Below, piece by piece: positions 11,768 to 17,374 of a DNA stretch of 19,074 bases (its first letter is position 1; every line of letters starts with the position of its first letter). The DNA comes from Candidatus Schekmanbacteria bacterium (lineage in GTDB: Bacteria > CSSED10-310 > JACPHN01). The notes under the pieces are model-generated. The model ran no database searches and was not told the DNA's origin. It saw only the letters and a list, made by a program, of their open reading frames with translations. A program made the translations under genes and the position numbers. The DNA lies in NCBI GenBank assembly GCA_016188575.1, contig JACPHN010000071.1, positions 1 through 19,074 on the forward strand, in the 5' to 3' direction.

Positions 11768-13495
11768 TTGGAGAGCTCCCTGACCTTGCTGTCGTACTGC
11801 GGTTCCGTGCCGATGGCGGCGTTGCTGCCGGGGCGCCATGTTTACGGTGATTACTGTGCGCGCAAGCCGGAGCTGATTCCCTTCTTTGGCGCGCACTACG
11901 ATGACGTGCGCGCGCTGCTCGAGCGCGGCCTTCCCAACGCGCCGCTGACTCCCGACGCGAGCTTCTACACGGCATGGAGCAATCACGCCCGCGATCACGG
12001 GGCGCCTGACGAGGCGCTGCGCAACTTGCGCCTGCTCGCCGGGCCGGGCGCGGTGGCGTGCGTCACCGGGCAGCAACAGGTGCTGCTGACCGGACCGCTC
12101 TACACCACCTACAAGATCGTCTCGGTGATATCGTGGAGCCGCCGCCTCCGCGCCTGGGGGATTCCGGCAGTTCCCGTGTTTTGGAGCGTCAGCGAGGATT
12201 CCGACCTCGCGGAAATCGATCACGTCTTCGTACTCGACGGTGACGCGGGTTGCCGGAAAATTTCCGTGCCGATTTTCCCCGGCAAGAGCTCTGGCCGTAT
12301 GGCCGGCCCTCTGCAGGCGATGTCGGCGATTCCGGAGCTCGGCGCCGACCTCGCCATGGCGCTCCGCCCGACCGAGCGGACCGCAGCGCTGATCGGCGAG
12401 CTCGGGGCTGCGGCAGGCGCGGGACCATGGTCCGGCTGGCACACGCGACTTCTCTATCGGTGGTTTGGTGCGGACGGCCTGGTCGTCTTGGACGAATCCA
12501 TGCCGGCGCTGAAGGTGGCGAGCGCCGCCGTCTGGCGTCTGATCGTCGACCGCTGGCCCCGCCTGCACGCCGCAGTCGACGCCGATCGCGAGGCGTTGAC
12601 GCGCCTCGGTTACGCCACTCGCCTGCGCCGGCGGCGCGCTTCCGTTCCGCCCTTCTTTGTCCGCGATGAGTGCTGCAGGTACCCGGTGAGCTACCTTCCG
12701 AACGGCGCCTACTGCTGGGAAGATGGCCGCGCTACGCAGTCCGAGCTGCGCGTGCTGGCCGAGGGCGAGCCGTGGCGCCTCTCGGCCAGCGTCTTGACCC
12801 GCCCGCCGCTCATGTGCGCGCTGCTTCCCGCGGTGCTGTACTGCGGCGGCCCCGGCGAGCTCGCCTACCACGCTCAGCTCGGCGGCGCCTATGCCGCGCT
12901 CGAAATCCCCAGGCCCGTTTTCGTGCCTCGCGCCTCGATCACGCTTCTGAGTGACCAGGCGCGGACGCTCTGCGCCAAGCTCGATGTCGCTCCATGCGAC
13001 GCCCTGGGCGCGGCAGTGGATCCCCATCGCCTGTGCGCGCGGGCCCTGGCGGCGCGATGTCCGCTGGCCGCTCCGGAAACGTGGACGGCTACGCAGCATG
13101 CGGCGGTGGCACCCCTGGAGCGTCTCGCCGCGGCAGTGGAGAGGGAAGATGCCTCACTCGCCGCTCCACTCCGCGCTGTCATCGATCACGTGGCGTCCCG
13201 CCTGGATACCGTGAGACGGCGTCTGGAGCGTTCGCTGGCCACCCGCAGCGAGGCCACGACGCGCCAGGCGGGCAAGCTGTGCCGACTGCTTCGCCCGCAA
13301 GGTCGCCTCCAGGAACGGCTGCTTTCACCGCTTACCTACGTGAACGAGTATGGGTGGGAGTGGATCCATGAGCTGCTCGAGCTCCCCGAGATCGACACCG
13401 TCGAGCACAAGCTCGTCGCGTTGCATGCGCGACCGGCGGATCGGCGAGCGCCGCGAGCAGCGCGCGCCCTTGACTGCGGCGGTGGCCGTACTTGA
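11768..13495 (+). CDS. bshC: BshC-family putative cysteine-adding enzyme (bacillithiol synthesis)
   Basis: The 575-aa product matches the BshC family, which in Firmicutes is needed to join cysteine to GlcN-malate, making bacillithiol, the low-molecular-weight thiol. Motifs seen: VTGQQQVLLTGPLYTTYK (from residue 99), VPVFWSVSEDSDLAEIDHV, LSASVLTRPPLMCALLPAVLYCGGPGELAYHAQL, then a coiled-coil stretch and a C-terminus with QGRLQERLLSPLTYVNEYG. The length is slightly above the usual 530-545 aa. The start is uncertain: TTG 11768 is the first canonical codon after the in-frame TAA at 11714, while GTG 11807 and ATG 11813 are later options. bshA and bshB are not in the window; it stands alone between the membrane protein and the FHA operon. 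Confidence 0.88.
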   Translation: MESSLTLLSYCGSVPMAALLPGRHVYGDYCARKPELIPFFGAHYDDVRALLERGLPNAPLTPDASFYTAWSNHARDHGAPDEALRNLRLLAGPGAVACVTGQQQVLLTGPLYTTYKIVSVISWSRRLRAWGIPAVPVFWSVSEDSDLAEIDHVFVLDGDAGCRKISVPIFPGKSSGRMAGPLQAMSAIPELGADLAMALRPTERTAALIGELGAAAGAGPWSGWHTRLLYRWFGADGLVVLDESMPALKVASAAVWRLIVDRWPRLHAAVDADREALTRLGYATRLRRRRASVPPFFVRDECCRYPVSYLPNGAYCWEDGRATQSELRVLAEGEPWRLSASVLTRPPLMCALLPAVLYCGGPGELAYHAQLGGAYAALEIPRPVFVPRASITLLSDQARTLCAKLDVAPCDALGAAVDPHRLCARALAARCPLAAPETWTATQHAAVAPLERLAAAVEREDASLAAPLRAVIDHVASRLDTVRRRLERSLATRSEATTRQAGKLCRLLRPQGRLQERLLSPLTYVNEYGWEWIHELLELPEIDTVEHKLVALHARPADRRAPRAARALDCGGGRT

Positions 13496-13520
13496 ATTCA
13501 ATGGTCTTGCCAACTAGGAT
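13492..13520 (+). promoter_or_regulatory. Sigma-70-type promoter for the FHA/CpaF unit
   Basis: TTGAAT (13492-13497), a 17-bp spacer and TAGGAT (13515-13520) overlap the last codons of bshC. A start near 13527 gives a leader of about 70 nt to ATG 13599. Four of six bases match in each hexamer. Confidence 0.4.
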
Positions 13521-13598
13521 CTAGGCATCCGAGGCGTTCGCGCCGCCCGCTTGCGACGCTTGGCCCGCGCCCGTTCCCAGTCTGGCTCGCCTCCTACG

Positions 13599-16253
13599 AT
13601 GCCAAAGCTAACGATAGTAACCGGGACAGAATTCAGCACCAAGTTCGCGATTCAGCAGGCGGTAGTCCGCCTTGGTCGTGGTGACGATAACGAGATCGTG
13701 CTCGACGATGTGTCGGTCTCCAGGCGCCACGCCAGAATTGTGCGCCGGTCTGAGGCGTGCGTCGTGGAAGATCTGCACAGCAGCGGGGGCACCTTCTTGA
13801 ATGGCCGGCGCGTCCAGCGCGAGGTCCTGTCTGATGGCGATGAAATCGGGATTGGGCGCTTCTCCCTCATCTTTCAAGAGGACTATGAGGGCGCCGTTCC
13901 CCTCGGAAAGACCATAGTCGGCGATGAGGACCTCGAGACGGGAAGTGAAACGGCGGTCGTCACCAAGGGGGCACGCGAGCCGCAACCCGGCGCCGTGCCG
14001 CCGGTGCCGGTAGCGAGTAACGCAAGTAGCCACACGGTTCCCGATCTCGTGGACTTTCAGGCCATGGTGCTCGACGAAGAAGACCACGCCCGGGTGGCCT
14101 CGGCACGCCGTCAAAAGGACTCCGCTGCAATGCGCGACCGCCAGTCCCCCGAGCCTCTCTATCGCACCGACGAGATGAGAGCGCTTCAGGAAACCGATCC
14201 TCTCGGCAATCGCCTCCTGGAAAACCTGGCGCAGAGCAGTGAGCCGCCGGCGCAGGCTGCTGCCGGGGGTGGCGCGGCGCGTCTGGTCATTCTCCACAAG
14301 GGAAACGTCATCCGGGAGGAGAACCTGCAAGGATTCGACCTGTCCATCGGGCGCGACCAGAGCAACGATATTGTGCTCGAAAGCATCGAGGTCTCGCGAT
14401 TTCACGCCAAGATCGTTTGCTCCGGCGGTCACTATTCCATCGAGGACCTGGGCTCATCCAATGGCACCTATCTGGGCGAGGAACGCATCCGCGAGCATAC
14501 TCTCAAGCACGGCACAGAGGTCCGTATCGGGCCCTTTGCGCTGATGTTCCGGGCTCCGCTGGACTTCGCGTCGACGGATTCCGACCACTTCGGCCGCACG
14601 ATGATGATGGAGCGCGGGCTCGATTTTACAGATCCGCTGCGGGAAAGGTCCGAAACCCTGGAGCAGATCGAATTTTCCGTGCAGACGACCGATCCCCTGC
14701 GCGCCTGTGAGGAACCTGAGAATCCCGACCCGACGATTGTCGACGCGGCGCCGGAGACGGTGGGAATCGATCCCGCGGAGCTCGCTCGCCGTGCCGGCGC
14801 TGCCGACCGTCGCGACAGCCCTGCGGCTGCGCGACCGGGGGCGACGCAGGCCCCATCGGCGCCGGCGGCGAGGGCGGCTTCCGGCCCGCTCATGCTGCTC
14901 GTGCTGGACGGCGCCCACGAAGGAGATCTCTTTCCGCTGACCGGGGCGCGCACGACCGTTGGCCGCGACGATACCGCGGACATCACGATTCATGATGACT
15001 CGGTCTCTCGGACGCACGCCGTGATCACGCGCGGGCCGTTGCGCTTCGAGGTGCAGGACCTGGGCAGCACCAACGGCACATTCCTGAACGGCGGGGCCAT
15101 TGACCGGGCCCCAATCAACGCGGGCGACCGCCTGACCTTTGGTAACGTGTCTGTCCTCGTTTCGCCTTCTGATGACGCAGATCAGGCGAGCAGCGCGGAT
15201 ATCATCCCGCTGCGGCGCCGCAGGTTGCGAATCCCCATGTCCCTGGTCGGCATCGTCGCCGCGCTTCTGGCCGTTCTATCAATCGGGACCATTGCTTTCG
15301 TTGCCTACAGAGAAAAAGATCGTCACGAAGGGGCGGATCGCGGCACGCCGAGCGGTCGCGCGAGTGACGCGAGTAACGCGAGTGACGCGAGTGAGATGAG
15401 TGAGATGAACGAGGAAGCTGGGGCCCGAAAACCCACCGATCTCGATCCAGTGCTGGTTCCGGATGTGCCCACCCCGCACGCCAGCGCGGATGAGGACGCG
15501 GATCGAGAGCCGCCGCGATCGACCGGAGCTCGACCGGAGGCCCCTCGGACCCACCGCTCCTTGCCGCGAAAGCCGCCCAGCGCCCCACCCGAGCAGCGCG
15601 GCGAGCCTGATGCCGATCCGGTGCCGAGCGGCGACGGCGATGCTGACGGCGTGCAGCAGCGGGCCGCCGCGCTGATGGCGCAGGCGTTTCAGGCCTACGC
15701 GGAGTCGGGGCCCGAGCCCGCGCTACGCTTCGTCGATTCGGCGCTACGTCTACCTATCCCGCCGGGAAGTGCCGAGCGCACCCGGCTCGAAGAAATCGCG
15801 GGACGCCTACGGGAAATCAACAACCTCGTCGAGCGCGGCGAAAAGGCTTCGGCCAACGGAGATCTGGATGCAACCGCGGCGGCCTGGTATTCCGCCATGG
15901 ACCACGAGCTTCACGGGATTCCAGCGGGCCGGGAGTACTTGAGCAGGCGCATTGGCCCAAAGCTCGCCCAGGTTGAGTACCAGCGCGGTCTCCGCAGCGT
16001 TGAGGACGGCAAGCCCGCGCTCGGATATGACCGCTTCAAGGACGCGGTGCGGCTCGCCGGCCAGCACGCCGAGGCACAGCGGCAGATCAAGGAAATTGAT
16101 GCCAGGGCCAAAGAGCTTTTTCAGCAGGCGCTCATGCGCGCGGACACCGACCCGGATCAGGCCAAGGAGGTCTTCCAGGAGGTCATGAGACTCGTTCCGC
16201 CCGACCATGAGTACCACCGGAGATCACGCGAAAAACTGAGGAACCTGCAGTGA
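13599..16253 (+). CDS. Membrane-anchored triple-FHA protein with TPR-like C-terminus
   Basis: The product is 884 aa from ATG 13599; TTG 13551 only adds an arginine/serine-rich tail. Three FHA domains, which bind phosphothreonine peptides, are clear: residues 1-95 (LGRGDDNEIV, SVSRRHA), 228-320 (IGRDQSNDIV, EVSRFHA, SSNGTY) and 430-522 (VGRDDTADI, SVSRTHA, STNGTFLNG). In the first, the usual Asn-Gly turn is Gly-Gly (HSSGGTFLNG). A single transmembrane helix (545-570) follows, then an Asp/Ser/Glu-rich linker with six 9-nt tandem repeats and proline-rich sequence. An alpha-helical C-terminal region (about 686-884) has TPR-like helices such as AFQAYAESGPEPALRFVDSALRL. Probable topology is FHA domains inside and helical part outside. 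Its stop overlaps the start of cpaF, so the two proteins probably act together. Confidence 0.9.
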   Translation: MPKLTIVTGTEFSTKFAIQQAVVRLGRGDDNEIVLDDVSVSRRHARIVRRSEACVVEDLHSSGGTFLNGRRVQREVLSDGDEIGIGRFSLIFQEDYEGAVPLGKTIVGDEDLETGSETAVVTKGAREPQPGAVPPVPVASNASSHTVPDLVDFQAMVLDEEDHARVASARRQKDSAAMRDRQSPEPLYRTDEMRALQETDPLGNRLLENLAQSSEPPAQAAAGGGAARLVILHKGNVIREENLQGFDLSIGRDQSNDIVLESIEVSRFHAKIVCSGGHYSIEDLGSSNGTYLGEERIREHTLKHGTEVRIGPFALMFRAPLDFASTDSDHFGRTMMMERGLDFTDPLRERSETLEQIEFSVQTTDPLRACEEPENPDPTIVDAAPETVGIDPAELARRAGAADRRDSPAAARPGATQAPSAPAARAASGPLMLLVLDGAHEGDLFPLTGARTTVGRDDTADITIHDDSVSRTHAVITRGPLRFEVQDLGSTNGTFLNGGAIDRAPINAGDRLTFGNVSVLVSPSDDADQASSADIIPLRRRRLRIPMSLVGIVAALLAVLSIGTIAFVAYREKDRHEGADRGTPSGRASDASNASDASEMSEMNEEAGARKPTDLDPVLVPDVPTPHASADEDADREPPRSTGARPEAPRTHRSLPRKPPSAPPEQRGEPDADPVPSGDGDADGVQQRAAALMAQAFQAYAESGPEPALRFVDSALRLPIPPGSAERTRLEEIAGRLREINNLVERGEKASANGDLDATAAAWYSAMDHELHGIPAGREYLSRRIGPKLAQVEYQRGLRSVEDGKPALGYDRFKDAVRLAGQHAEAQRQIKEIDARAKELFQQALMRADTDPDQAKEVFQEVMRLVPPDHEYHRRSREKLRNLQ
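15360..15413 (+). repeat. Six tandem 9-bp units inside the FHA gene
   Basis: Units GCGAGTGAC, GCGAGTAAC, GCGAGTGAC, GCGAGTGAG, ATGAGTGAG and ATGAACGAG run in frame. They encode ASD-ASN-ASD-ASE-MSE-MNE in the linker just after the membrane helix. The period is a multiple of three, so copy-number slippage would keep the frame. Confidence 0.85.
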
Positions 16254-17374
16254 AGCCCGACAAGCTCCATATCACGCGCAAGATCGAGCGCGACGAAGAC
16301 GAACTGGATTACGGTCCGATCTCGCCCCTGCTCGCGGATCCCGCGGTTTCCGAAGTCATGGTCAATAGCTGGGATCGCGTTTTTGTTGAACGCTCGGGGA
16401 CTCTGGAGGAGGCGAGCGTCCAGTTCCACGACGAGGCCGCCGTAATGGACCTCGCCAACCGCATTGCGCGGGCCGCCCGCAGGCACATTGCGCCGGAGTG
16501 CCCGATGCTGGATGCCCGCCTCAGAGACGGCTCTCGCGTCAATATCATCCTGCCCCCGCTGGCCGTCAAGGGGGCAAGCATCACCATTCGCAGATTCGCG
16601 AACGTCCCGTTCACAATCAAGGACCTGATCGAGCATGGGGCACTGACGCCGGCGGCCGCGCAGTTTCTCGAGATCTGCGTGAAAAACCGCAAGAACATCG
16701 TAATTAGCGGCGGTGCCAGTACCGGTAAGACGACGCTTCTCAATGTCCTTTCGTCGCTGATTCCCCCCTCCAGCCGGATCATCACGGTCGAGGATGCCGC
16801 GGAGCTGCGTCTGTGGCAGAAGAATGTCGTTTACCTCGAGGCTCGACCCGGTGACCCCCAGCGAGGTGAGCACGAAGTGACGATCCGCCAGCTCGTAAAA
16901 AATGCTCTCCGCATGCGCCCGGATAGAATCGTGGTGGGCGAATGTCGAGGCGGCGAGGTCCTGGACATGCTCATCGCCATGAATACGGGGCTCGAAGGTT
17001 CGATGACTACCGCCCATGGCAACTCGCCACGAGACATCATGAACAAGCTGGAAACCATGGCGCTCATGAGCGGCATGGACATCCCGGAGCGCGCTCTGCG
17101 TGAACAGGTGGCGTCGGCGATCGACATCGTCGTGCACCTCCAGCGCTTTCCGGAGGGGCGACGTAAGGTTACCCACATCGTCGAGGTCACCGGGTGCGAG
17201 GGCAACCGCGTCCTGATGATGGATATCTTTCTCTATCGCAGCCGCGGACGCGATGCCAATGGCAAGATCGTCGGCGACCTGATGCCGACGGAAATGGTGC
17301 CGAGCTTTGTCGGCGAGCTCATCCGGGCCGGCCAGCAAGTTCCCGTGGAGATCTTTCACGGAGCGCGCGCCTGA
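16250..17374 (+). CDS. cpaF: CpaF/TadA-family secretion ATPase, short form
   Basis: The product is 374 aa. It belongs to the type II/IV secretion ATPase superfamily, hexameric motors for Tad/Flp pili and related systems. The N-terminal domain starts at DYGPISPLLADPAVSEVMVN and includes DARLRDGSRVNIILPPL. The motor has Walker A GGASTGKTT (154-162, Lys160), Walker B with RIVVGECRGGE (Glu231), and the His-box region MTTAHGNSP. Typical CpaF proteins exceed 430 aa; here the N-terminal helical extension is almost absent. Walker A reads A-S-T-G where T-G-S-G is common. GTG 16250 overlaps the preceding TGA, so it is translationally coupled to the FHA protein. No other Tad genes (tadB, tadC, flp, cpaE) are present in the window. 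Confidence 0.93.
   Translation: MKPDKLHITRKIERDEDELDYGPISPLLADPAVSEVMVNSWDRVFVERSGTLEEASVQFHDEAAVMDLANRIARAARRHIAPECPMLDARLRDGSRVNIILPPLAVKGASITIRRFANVPFTIKDLIEHGALTPAAAQFLEICVKNRKNIVISGGASTGKTTLLNVLSSLIPPSSRIITVEDAAELRLWQKNVVYLEARPGDPQRGEHEVTIRQLVKNALRMRPDRIVVGECRGGEVLDMLIAMNTGLEGSMTTAHGNSPRDIMNKLETMALMSGMDIPERALREQVASAIDIVVHLQRFPEGRRKVTHIVEVTGCEGNRVLMMDIFLYRSRGRDANGKIVGDLMPTEMVPSFVGELIRAGQQVPVEIFHGARA

Follow-up and report, generated by a model that had tools for sequence, protein, structure and literature searches.

Architecture and genomic setting of the gene pair

The window, by which we mean the whole stretch of DNA analysed, was the entire contig G000:C188 (19,074 bp) of a 9.2-Mb genome. 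Two genes on its forward strand formed the subject of this study. P0001 (13599-16253, ATG start) encoded an 884-aa protein composed of three FHA domains, a membrane helix and a helical repeat region. P0002 (16250-17374, GTG start) encoded a 374-aa ATPase of the CpaF/TadA family that lacked the three-helix bundle. As the first-pass annotation had reported, the stop of the first gene overlapped the start of the second; the overlap comprised the 4 nt GTGA (16250-16253). A Shine-Dalgarno-like GAGGA was located at 16238-16242 on the same strand, 8 nt upstream of the GTG, and this site together with the start/stop overlap implied co-translation of the two proteins. Both frames (884 and 374 codons) were open and showed a strong third-position GC bias.

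The pair was preceded directly by bshC (11768-13495), whose product, a bacillithiol-forming enzyme, matched TIGR03998 over the cut-off. The spacing from bshC to the ATG of P0001 was 103 nt, and the start of 13492 given earlier for the unit fell inside the end of bshC. A gene for a WecG-type transferase, in the opposite orientation and 22 bp downstream of P0002, ended the unit. The promoter-like site previously ascribed to the pair was not recovered, as no sigma-70-like promoter was matched on the forward strand between 13300 and 17600. The identified genes in the rest of the window had metabolic, signalling or cell-envelope functions (for example histidine kinases, GlmS, an acyltransferase, glycogen synthase, BshC and the WecG-type transferase). 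The scan of the window proteins revealed no other pilus or secretion gene (tadB/tadC platform, secretin or pilin), which agreed with the earlier reading.

P0001 is a membrane protein with three FHA domains

The three FHA stretches of P0001 were recognised by Pfam PF00498 (E 4e-59), and the AlphaFold model had pLDDT values mostly above 90 across all three domains. Their folds matched solved FHA domains with Z scores of up to 19.0 (96 aligned residues, rmsd 1.3). The second domain (14343-14531, forward strand) carried the canonical GR, SRxH and SSNGT motifs, and the third (14952-15143, forward strand) likewise carried GR, SRxH and STNGT. In the first domain (13665-13856, forward strand), GR and SRxH were kept and the Asn of SxNGT was replaced by Gly (SSGGT). 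P0001 thus showed the FHA fold with the conserved GR, SxxH and NG residues expected of a phosphothreonine reader, with Gly for Asn in the first domain.

A membrane helix was predicted at residues 548-572 (15240-15314, forward strand) with the sequence RRRRLR just before it, and by the positive-inside rule the N-terminus was predicted to lie inside. The C-terminal domain (residues 682-884; 15642-16250, forward strand) would then probably be periplasmic. It was all-helical in the AlphaFold model, with pLDDT mostly above 90. The description of P0001 as FHA-FHA-FHA-TM-TPR-like was therefore correct for the FHA domains, the membrane helix and the helical C-terminus, but Pfam detected no TPR family there, and the label “TPR-like” comes from relatives and from the wholly helical model. 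In the fold search with P0001, the matches listed were all taken up by the FHA domains and none fell on the C-terminal domain. The C-terminus was homologous to the C-termini of paralogues and of a 962-aa protein encoded in a Tad locus of a second genome of the phylum, G002 (L066:8437-11325; E 9e-8). The idea that this region represents a displaced three-helix bundle of the ATPase was judged unlikely, since it lies beyond the membrane helix, on the predicted periplasmic side, and shares homology with the C-terminal part of that Tad-locus protein, which also has three FHA domains and a membrane helix.

At least seven paralogues of P0001 were found in the genome (on contigs C62, C54, C229, C131, C140, C30 and C43). 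None of them adjoined a CpaF gene, and for five a protein kinase gene lay no more than about 10 kb away.

P0002 is a CpaF-family ATPase without the three-helix bundle

P0002 matched the T2SSE family (E 1.4e-50) and scored 312 bits on NCBIfam TIGR03819, under the curated cut-off of 373 bits. Residues 16-347 aligned with the solved CpaF of Caulobacter crescentus (8rkd; E 1.2e-95) and covered the NTD and the ATPase domain. The model had a pLDDT of 92 and was disordered up to residue 15. The NTD was followed by a RecA-like ATPase domain with Walker A and B motifs, Asp box, His box and Arg fingers, as expected of the CpaF/TadA family. The Walker A motif GGASTGKT (16709-16732, forward strand) retained the catalytic Lys160. 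The catalytic residues named for CpaF are D215, R217, R223, K287, T288, E312, R347, E357, R359 and H382 (PMC12019362, PMC11300603), and all of those checked were kept in P0002 (D88, R90, R96, K160, T161, E185, R221, E231, R233 and H256).

The alignment with 8rkd started at CpaF residue 143, so the three-helix bundle that precedes the NTD was absent from P0002, as was any FHA domain fused to the N-terminus of the ATPase. A hidden or mis-called N-terminus was ruled out because only 13 in-frame codons were available ahead of the GTG. The earlier statement that the ATPase lacks most of the usual N-terminal extension was thus borne out. The minimum architecture of CpaF was described as 3HB-NTD-CAD, and deletion of the three-helix bundle (3HB) in Caulobacter gave no detectable protein (PMC12019362); deletion of residues 1-146 of Caulobacter CpaF abolished function, with the same caveat on expression (PMC11300603).

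Two further elements were altered. Asp208 in Loop 8 and the EGSG of the central loop of CpaF are predicted platform contacts, and their mutation abolished Tad function in Caulobacter with the caveat of lowered expression (PMC11300603). In P0002, the position of Asp208 was occupied by Ala81 (16490-16492, forward strand), and GDPQRGEHEV (16850-16879, forward strand) replaced the NLEGSG-type loop. In addition, H374 of CpaF was changed to Leu. From its sequence, P0002 looks catalytically intact and stripped of the parts that hold the ATPase to the pilus base. The loss of both tested platform-contact elements argues against P0002 simply working on a platform encoded elsewhere.

Short CpaF proteins in other genomes

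P0002 was searched against 386 diverse genomes, of which 86 yielded a CpaF at E <= 1e-75, and about 100 CpaF loci were read with home-built profiles. Most full-length CpaFs in these loci were within Tad loci with platform genes. N-terminally short forms were found at L155, L156, L157, L158, L159, L161, L123, L126 and L127 and as a second copy at L231; L123, L126 and L127 came from a pattern scan biased toward P0002-like sequence. Two further proteins (L154 and L160) were only apparently short, as they run off contig ends, and were excluded. The short copy at L231 sat after a complete FHA-CpaF Tad cluster. Around the other short forms, the stretch read extended 7-10 kb to either side in most cases, or less at contig ends, and contained no platform gene. 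A full-length CpaF was also present in all six surveyed genomes with short forms (L177, L174, L185, L217, L077 and L231). Among the short forms found, only that of the window had a recognised FHA gene directly beside it.

Nearly all of the short paralogues kept the active site, and most were without D208 and the [ED]GxG of the central loop. Of 75 full-length CpaFs linked to Tad genes, 68 retained D208 and 61 retained [ED]GxG, whereas of 10 short CpaFs only 2 retained D208 (Fisher p 5e-6) and 1 retained [ED]GxG (p 2e-5); both tests ignore the kinship of the rows, and the ten short rows included three from the P0002-biased scan and P0002 itself. The trees showed at least two supported separate groups of short forms and no single clade of short CpaFs, which suggests that the three-helix bundle was probably lost more than once. 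In three trees, one of them with 61 rows, P0002 was on a long branch (1.1-1.9) with no supported neighbours; the tree with 61 rows put it close to other short forms, which may reflect long-branch attraction. A scan of public genome contigs with P0002, made to find an orthologous pair, gave nine loci, none of them close, and P0002 was a singleton in the data searched.

Tad genes, kinases and FHA proteins elsewhere in the genome

Contig C219 (L031, L071) carried a complete Tad locus that included a CpaF of its own, a kind of finding that the first-pass annotation had named as telling against its proposal. The locus encoded a TadZ-CpaF fusion, TadB, TadC, a secretin, CpaB, TadE/TadG-like proteins and an 84-aa Flp-like ORF, together with three FHA proteins (one FHA-TM-TPR) and a TPR lipoprotein. 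The fusion of TadZ (a CpaE-type ATPase) to CpaF was about 750 aa long (L031:13117-15390 and L067:9188-11431) and was common to many of the surveyed Tad loci. The unlinked tadB/tadC genes that had been anticipated were found as one pair, at C219, which was the only pair identified in the assembly; the CpaC-type secretin was likewise identified once, at C219. For an unlinked flp gene the outcome was mixed: the 84-aa ORF may be called Flp-like by its size, sequence and place, but the Flp pilin family search gave no match over the cut-off. As to Ser/Thr kinase genes, the other anticipated component, the 9.2 Mb contained about 188 protein-kinase matches, along with 55 FHA matches. Several of the kinases also bore AAA and TPR regions.

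Comparison with Kil-type and class III systems

No orthologous P0001-P0002 pair was found in seven other genomes of the phylum, and this too was a kind of result that the first-pass annotation had named as telling against its proposal. One of these, G002, had the Tad locus L066 with an FHA-CpaF fusion, TadB, TadC and the 962-aa homologue of P0001 described above. FHA-CpaF fusions were also the closest proteins to P0002 by identity (53-55%). In the phylum of G035, which has large genomes and is probably Myxococcota, P0002 matched a CpaF at E <= 1e-75 in 149 of 195 genomes; most of the best 30 P0002 relatives there were FHA-CpaF fusions preceded by a secretin. A gene with two FHA domains was directly downstream of the motor in 26 of these 30 best KilF-type loci, and the gap between the two genes was 7-44 bp in seven of the eight full-length loci in which the motor gene was called. 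The full-length downstream neighbours, 562-740 aa long, had the architecture FHA-FHA-membrane helix, and several of them also gave TPR matches. The tabulation of neighbours thus placed multi-FHA genes beside CpaF, in this case beside FHA-fused CpaF, and the proposed association of FHA proteins with CpaF motors was also in line with published work on class III CpaF (PMC12019362) and on the Kil system (PMC8460266).

The Kil system, a Tad-like predation apparatus of Myxococcus xanthus, is rich in FHA proteins, and its gene order is the secretin KilC, the ATPase KilF with an N-terminal FHA domain, and KilD downstream (PMC8460266). By the published description, the window pair resembles KilF-KilD in that a CpaF-family gene adjoins a multi-domain partner with which it is likely co-transcribed, in an FHA-rich setting (PMC8460266, PMC12075869), and the CpaF gene of the window was adjacent to a multi-FHA gene on the same strand. 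Unlike KilF-KilD, the window pair had the reverse order, P0002 lacked the FHA domain, the three-helix bundle and the platform-contact residues, and no secretin, platform or pilin gene was nearby. KilD has been described as cytoplasmic (PMC8460266, PMC12075869), whereas the genes at the kilD position in the surveyed KilF-type loci had a predicted membrane helix. Class III CpaFs bear an N-terminal FHA domain in the layout FHA-IDR-3HB-NTD-CAD (PMC12019362). The best relatives of P0002 were of this type, and FHA is coupled to a CpaF motor in both cases; in the window, however, FHA was on a separate membrane protein and the three-helix bundle was absent. Compared with Caulobacter CpaF (8rkd, 9e24), the NTD and ATPase domain aligned and the catalytic residues were kept, but P0002 had no counterpart of residues 1-142 (the disordered region and the three-helix bundle), and D208, the EGSG loop and H374 were changed.

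The pairing of a multi-FHA membrane gene with a CpaF gene is therefore already known, and the window pair is a rearranged variant of the Kil-type pairing. It is plausible from the sequences that the pair descended from genes at the KilF and kilD positions, with the FHA domain moved off the motor, the placement of P0002 being without tree support.

Possible function of the pair

We tentatively favor the explanation that P0001 and P0002 form a translationally coupled, FHA-rich pair of Tad/Kil type, in which P0002 has an FHA scaffold of its own and is an accessory or regulatory ATPase, not a primary pilus motor; we hold this with somewhat less than even confidence. P0001 would be anchored in the inner membrane, and its FHA domains, on the cytoplasmic side, may bind phosphothreonine on a partner. 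It could then recruit or position P0002 at the membrane through a purely conjectural contact, standing in for the lost three-helix bundle and the lost fused FHA domain. P0002 would hydrolyse ATP, yet would not drive pilin through a TadB/TadC platform in the manner usual for CpaF; its most likely role would be accessory or regulatory, perhaps on the Tad machine of C219. Counting against this explanation are the lack of an orthologous pair among the genomes searched, the paralogues of P0001 (at least seven) without an adjoining CpaF, the long branch of P0002, the neglect of kinship in the loop-residue counts, and the contrast between KilD, described as cytoplasmic, and the predicted membrane helix of its positional counterparts.

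An alternative is that the two genes are chance neighbours, P0001 belonging to a lineage-specific FHA-membrane-helical family that works with kinases and P0002 being an orphan cpaF paralogue that landed behind it. The proximity of five P0001 paralogues to kinase genes, the absence of a conserved pair in the seven other genomes of the phylum and the singleton status of P0002 fit this account, but the 4-nt overlap with its Shine-Dalgarno-like site implies co-translation, and the same two gene types adjoin in KilF-type loci of another phylum. We consider chance neighbourhood rather unlikely.

It is also unlikely, and slightly more so, that P0002 is a phospho-gated primary motor, switched by Ser/Thr kinases via the FHA domains of P0001 and acting on a platform elsewhere, either TadB/TadC of C219 or one missing from the assembly. 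The intact catalytic residues, the many kinases and FHA proteins, the single TadB/TadC pair and the known coupling of FHA to CpaF (PMC12019362, PMC8460266) would suit such a motor. However, C219 carries its own TadZ-CpaF motor; P0002 lacks the three-helix bundle, the removal of which left no detectable protein in Caulobacter (PMC12019362, PMC11300603); and it has lost D208 and the EGSG loop, the mutation of which abolished Tad function with lowered expression as a caveat (PMC11300603). Of the stand-alone, phospho-gated secretion motor originally proposed, the association of FHA with CpaF stood, but the motor role was weakened by the complete Tad locus with its own CpaF, by the lack of an orthologous pair in the seven other genomes of the phylum and by the lost platform contacts. 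It is very unlikely that the pair is what remains of a second, Kil-like Tad locus in decay: both gene types occur in L066 of the related G002, and P0002 is long-branched and has lost its N-terminus, but the frames of 884 and 374 codons are open with strong third-position GC bias, the active-site residues are all kept and the fold of P0002 is confident (pLDDT 92).

The unusual part of the locus, and the one worth following, is the CpaF class without the three-helix bundle. A wider proposal, to which we give low though not negligible probability, is that CpaF-derived ATPases without the three-helix bundle and the platform contacts form a recurrent class, which keeps catalysis and acts outside pilus assembly. 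The window member, the only one found with its own FHA membrane scaffold, would on this proposal have evolved from a pilus motor into a phospho-responsive regulatory ATPase. Natural CpaF paralogues that are catalytically intact without the bundle and the tested platform contacts would demonstrate that a pilus motor is separable from pilus assembly. As a naturally split FHA-CpaF fusion, the pair would allow phosphothreonine sensing to be examined apart from the motor.

Other unlinked secretion genes were also seen in the genome. At L032:6087-10119, on contig C257, a second orphan CpaF (440 aa) overlapped a TPR-rich gene of 915 aa, and a related orphan CpaF occurred in G002 (L068). On contig C175, a lone platform-type T2SSF protein (L117:6361-7419) was encoded with no secretion ATPase seen nearby, and a kinase-like gene and an FHA gene were located 4-7 kb from it.
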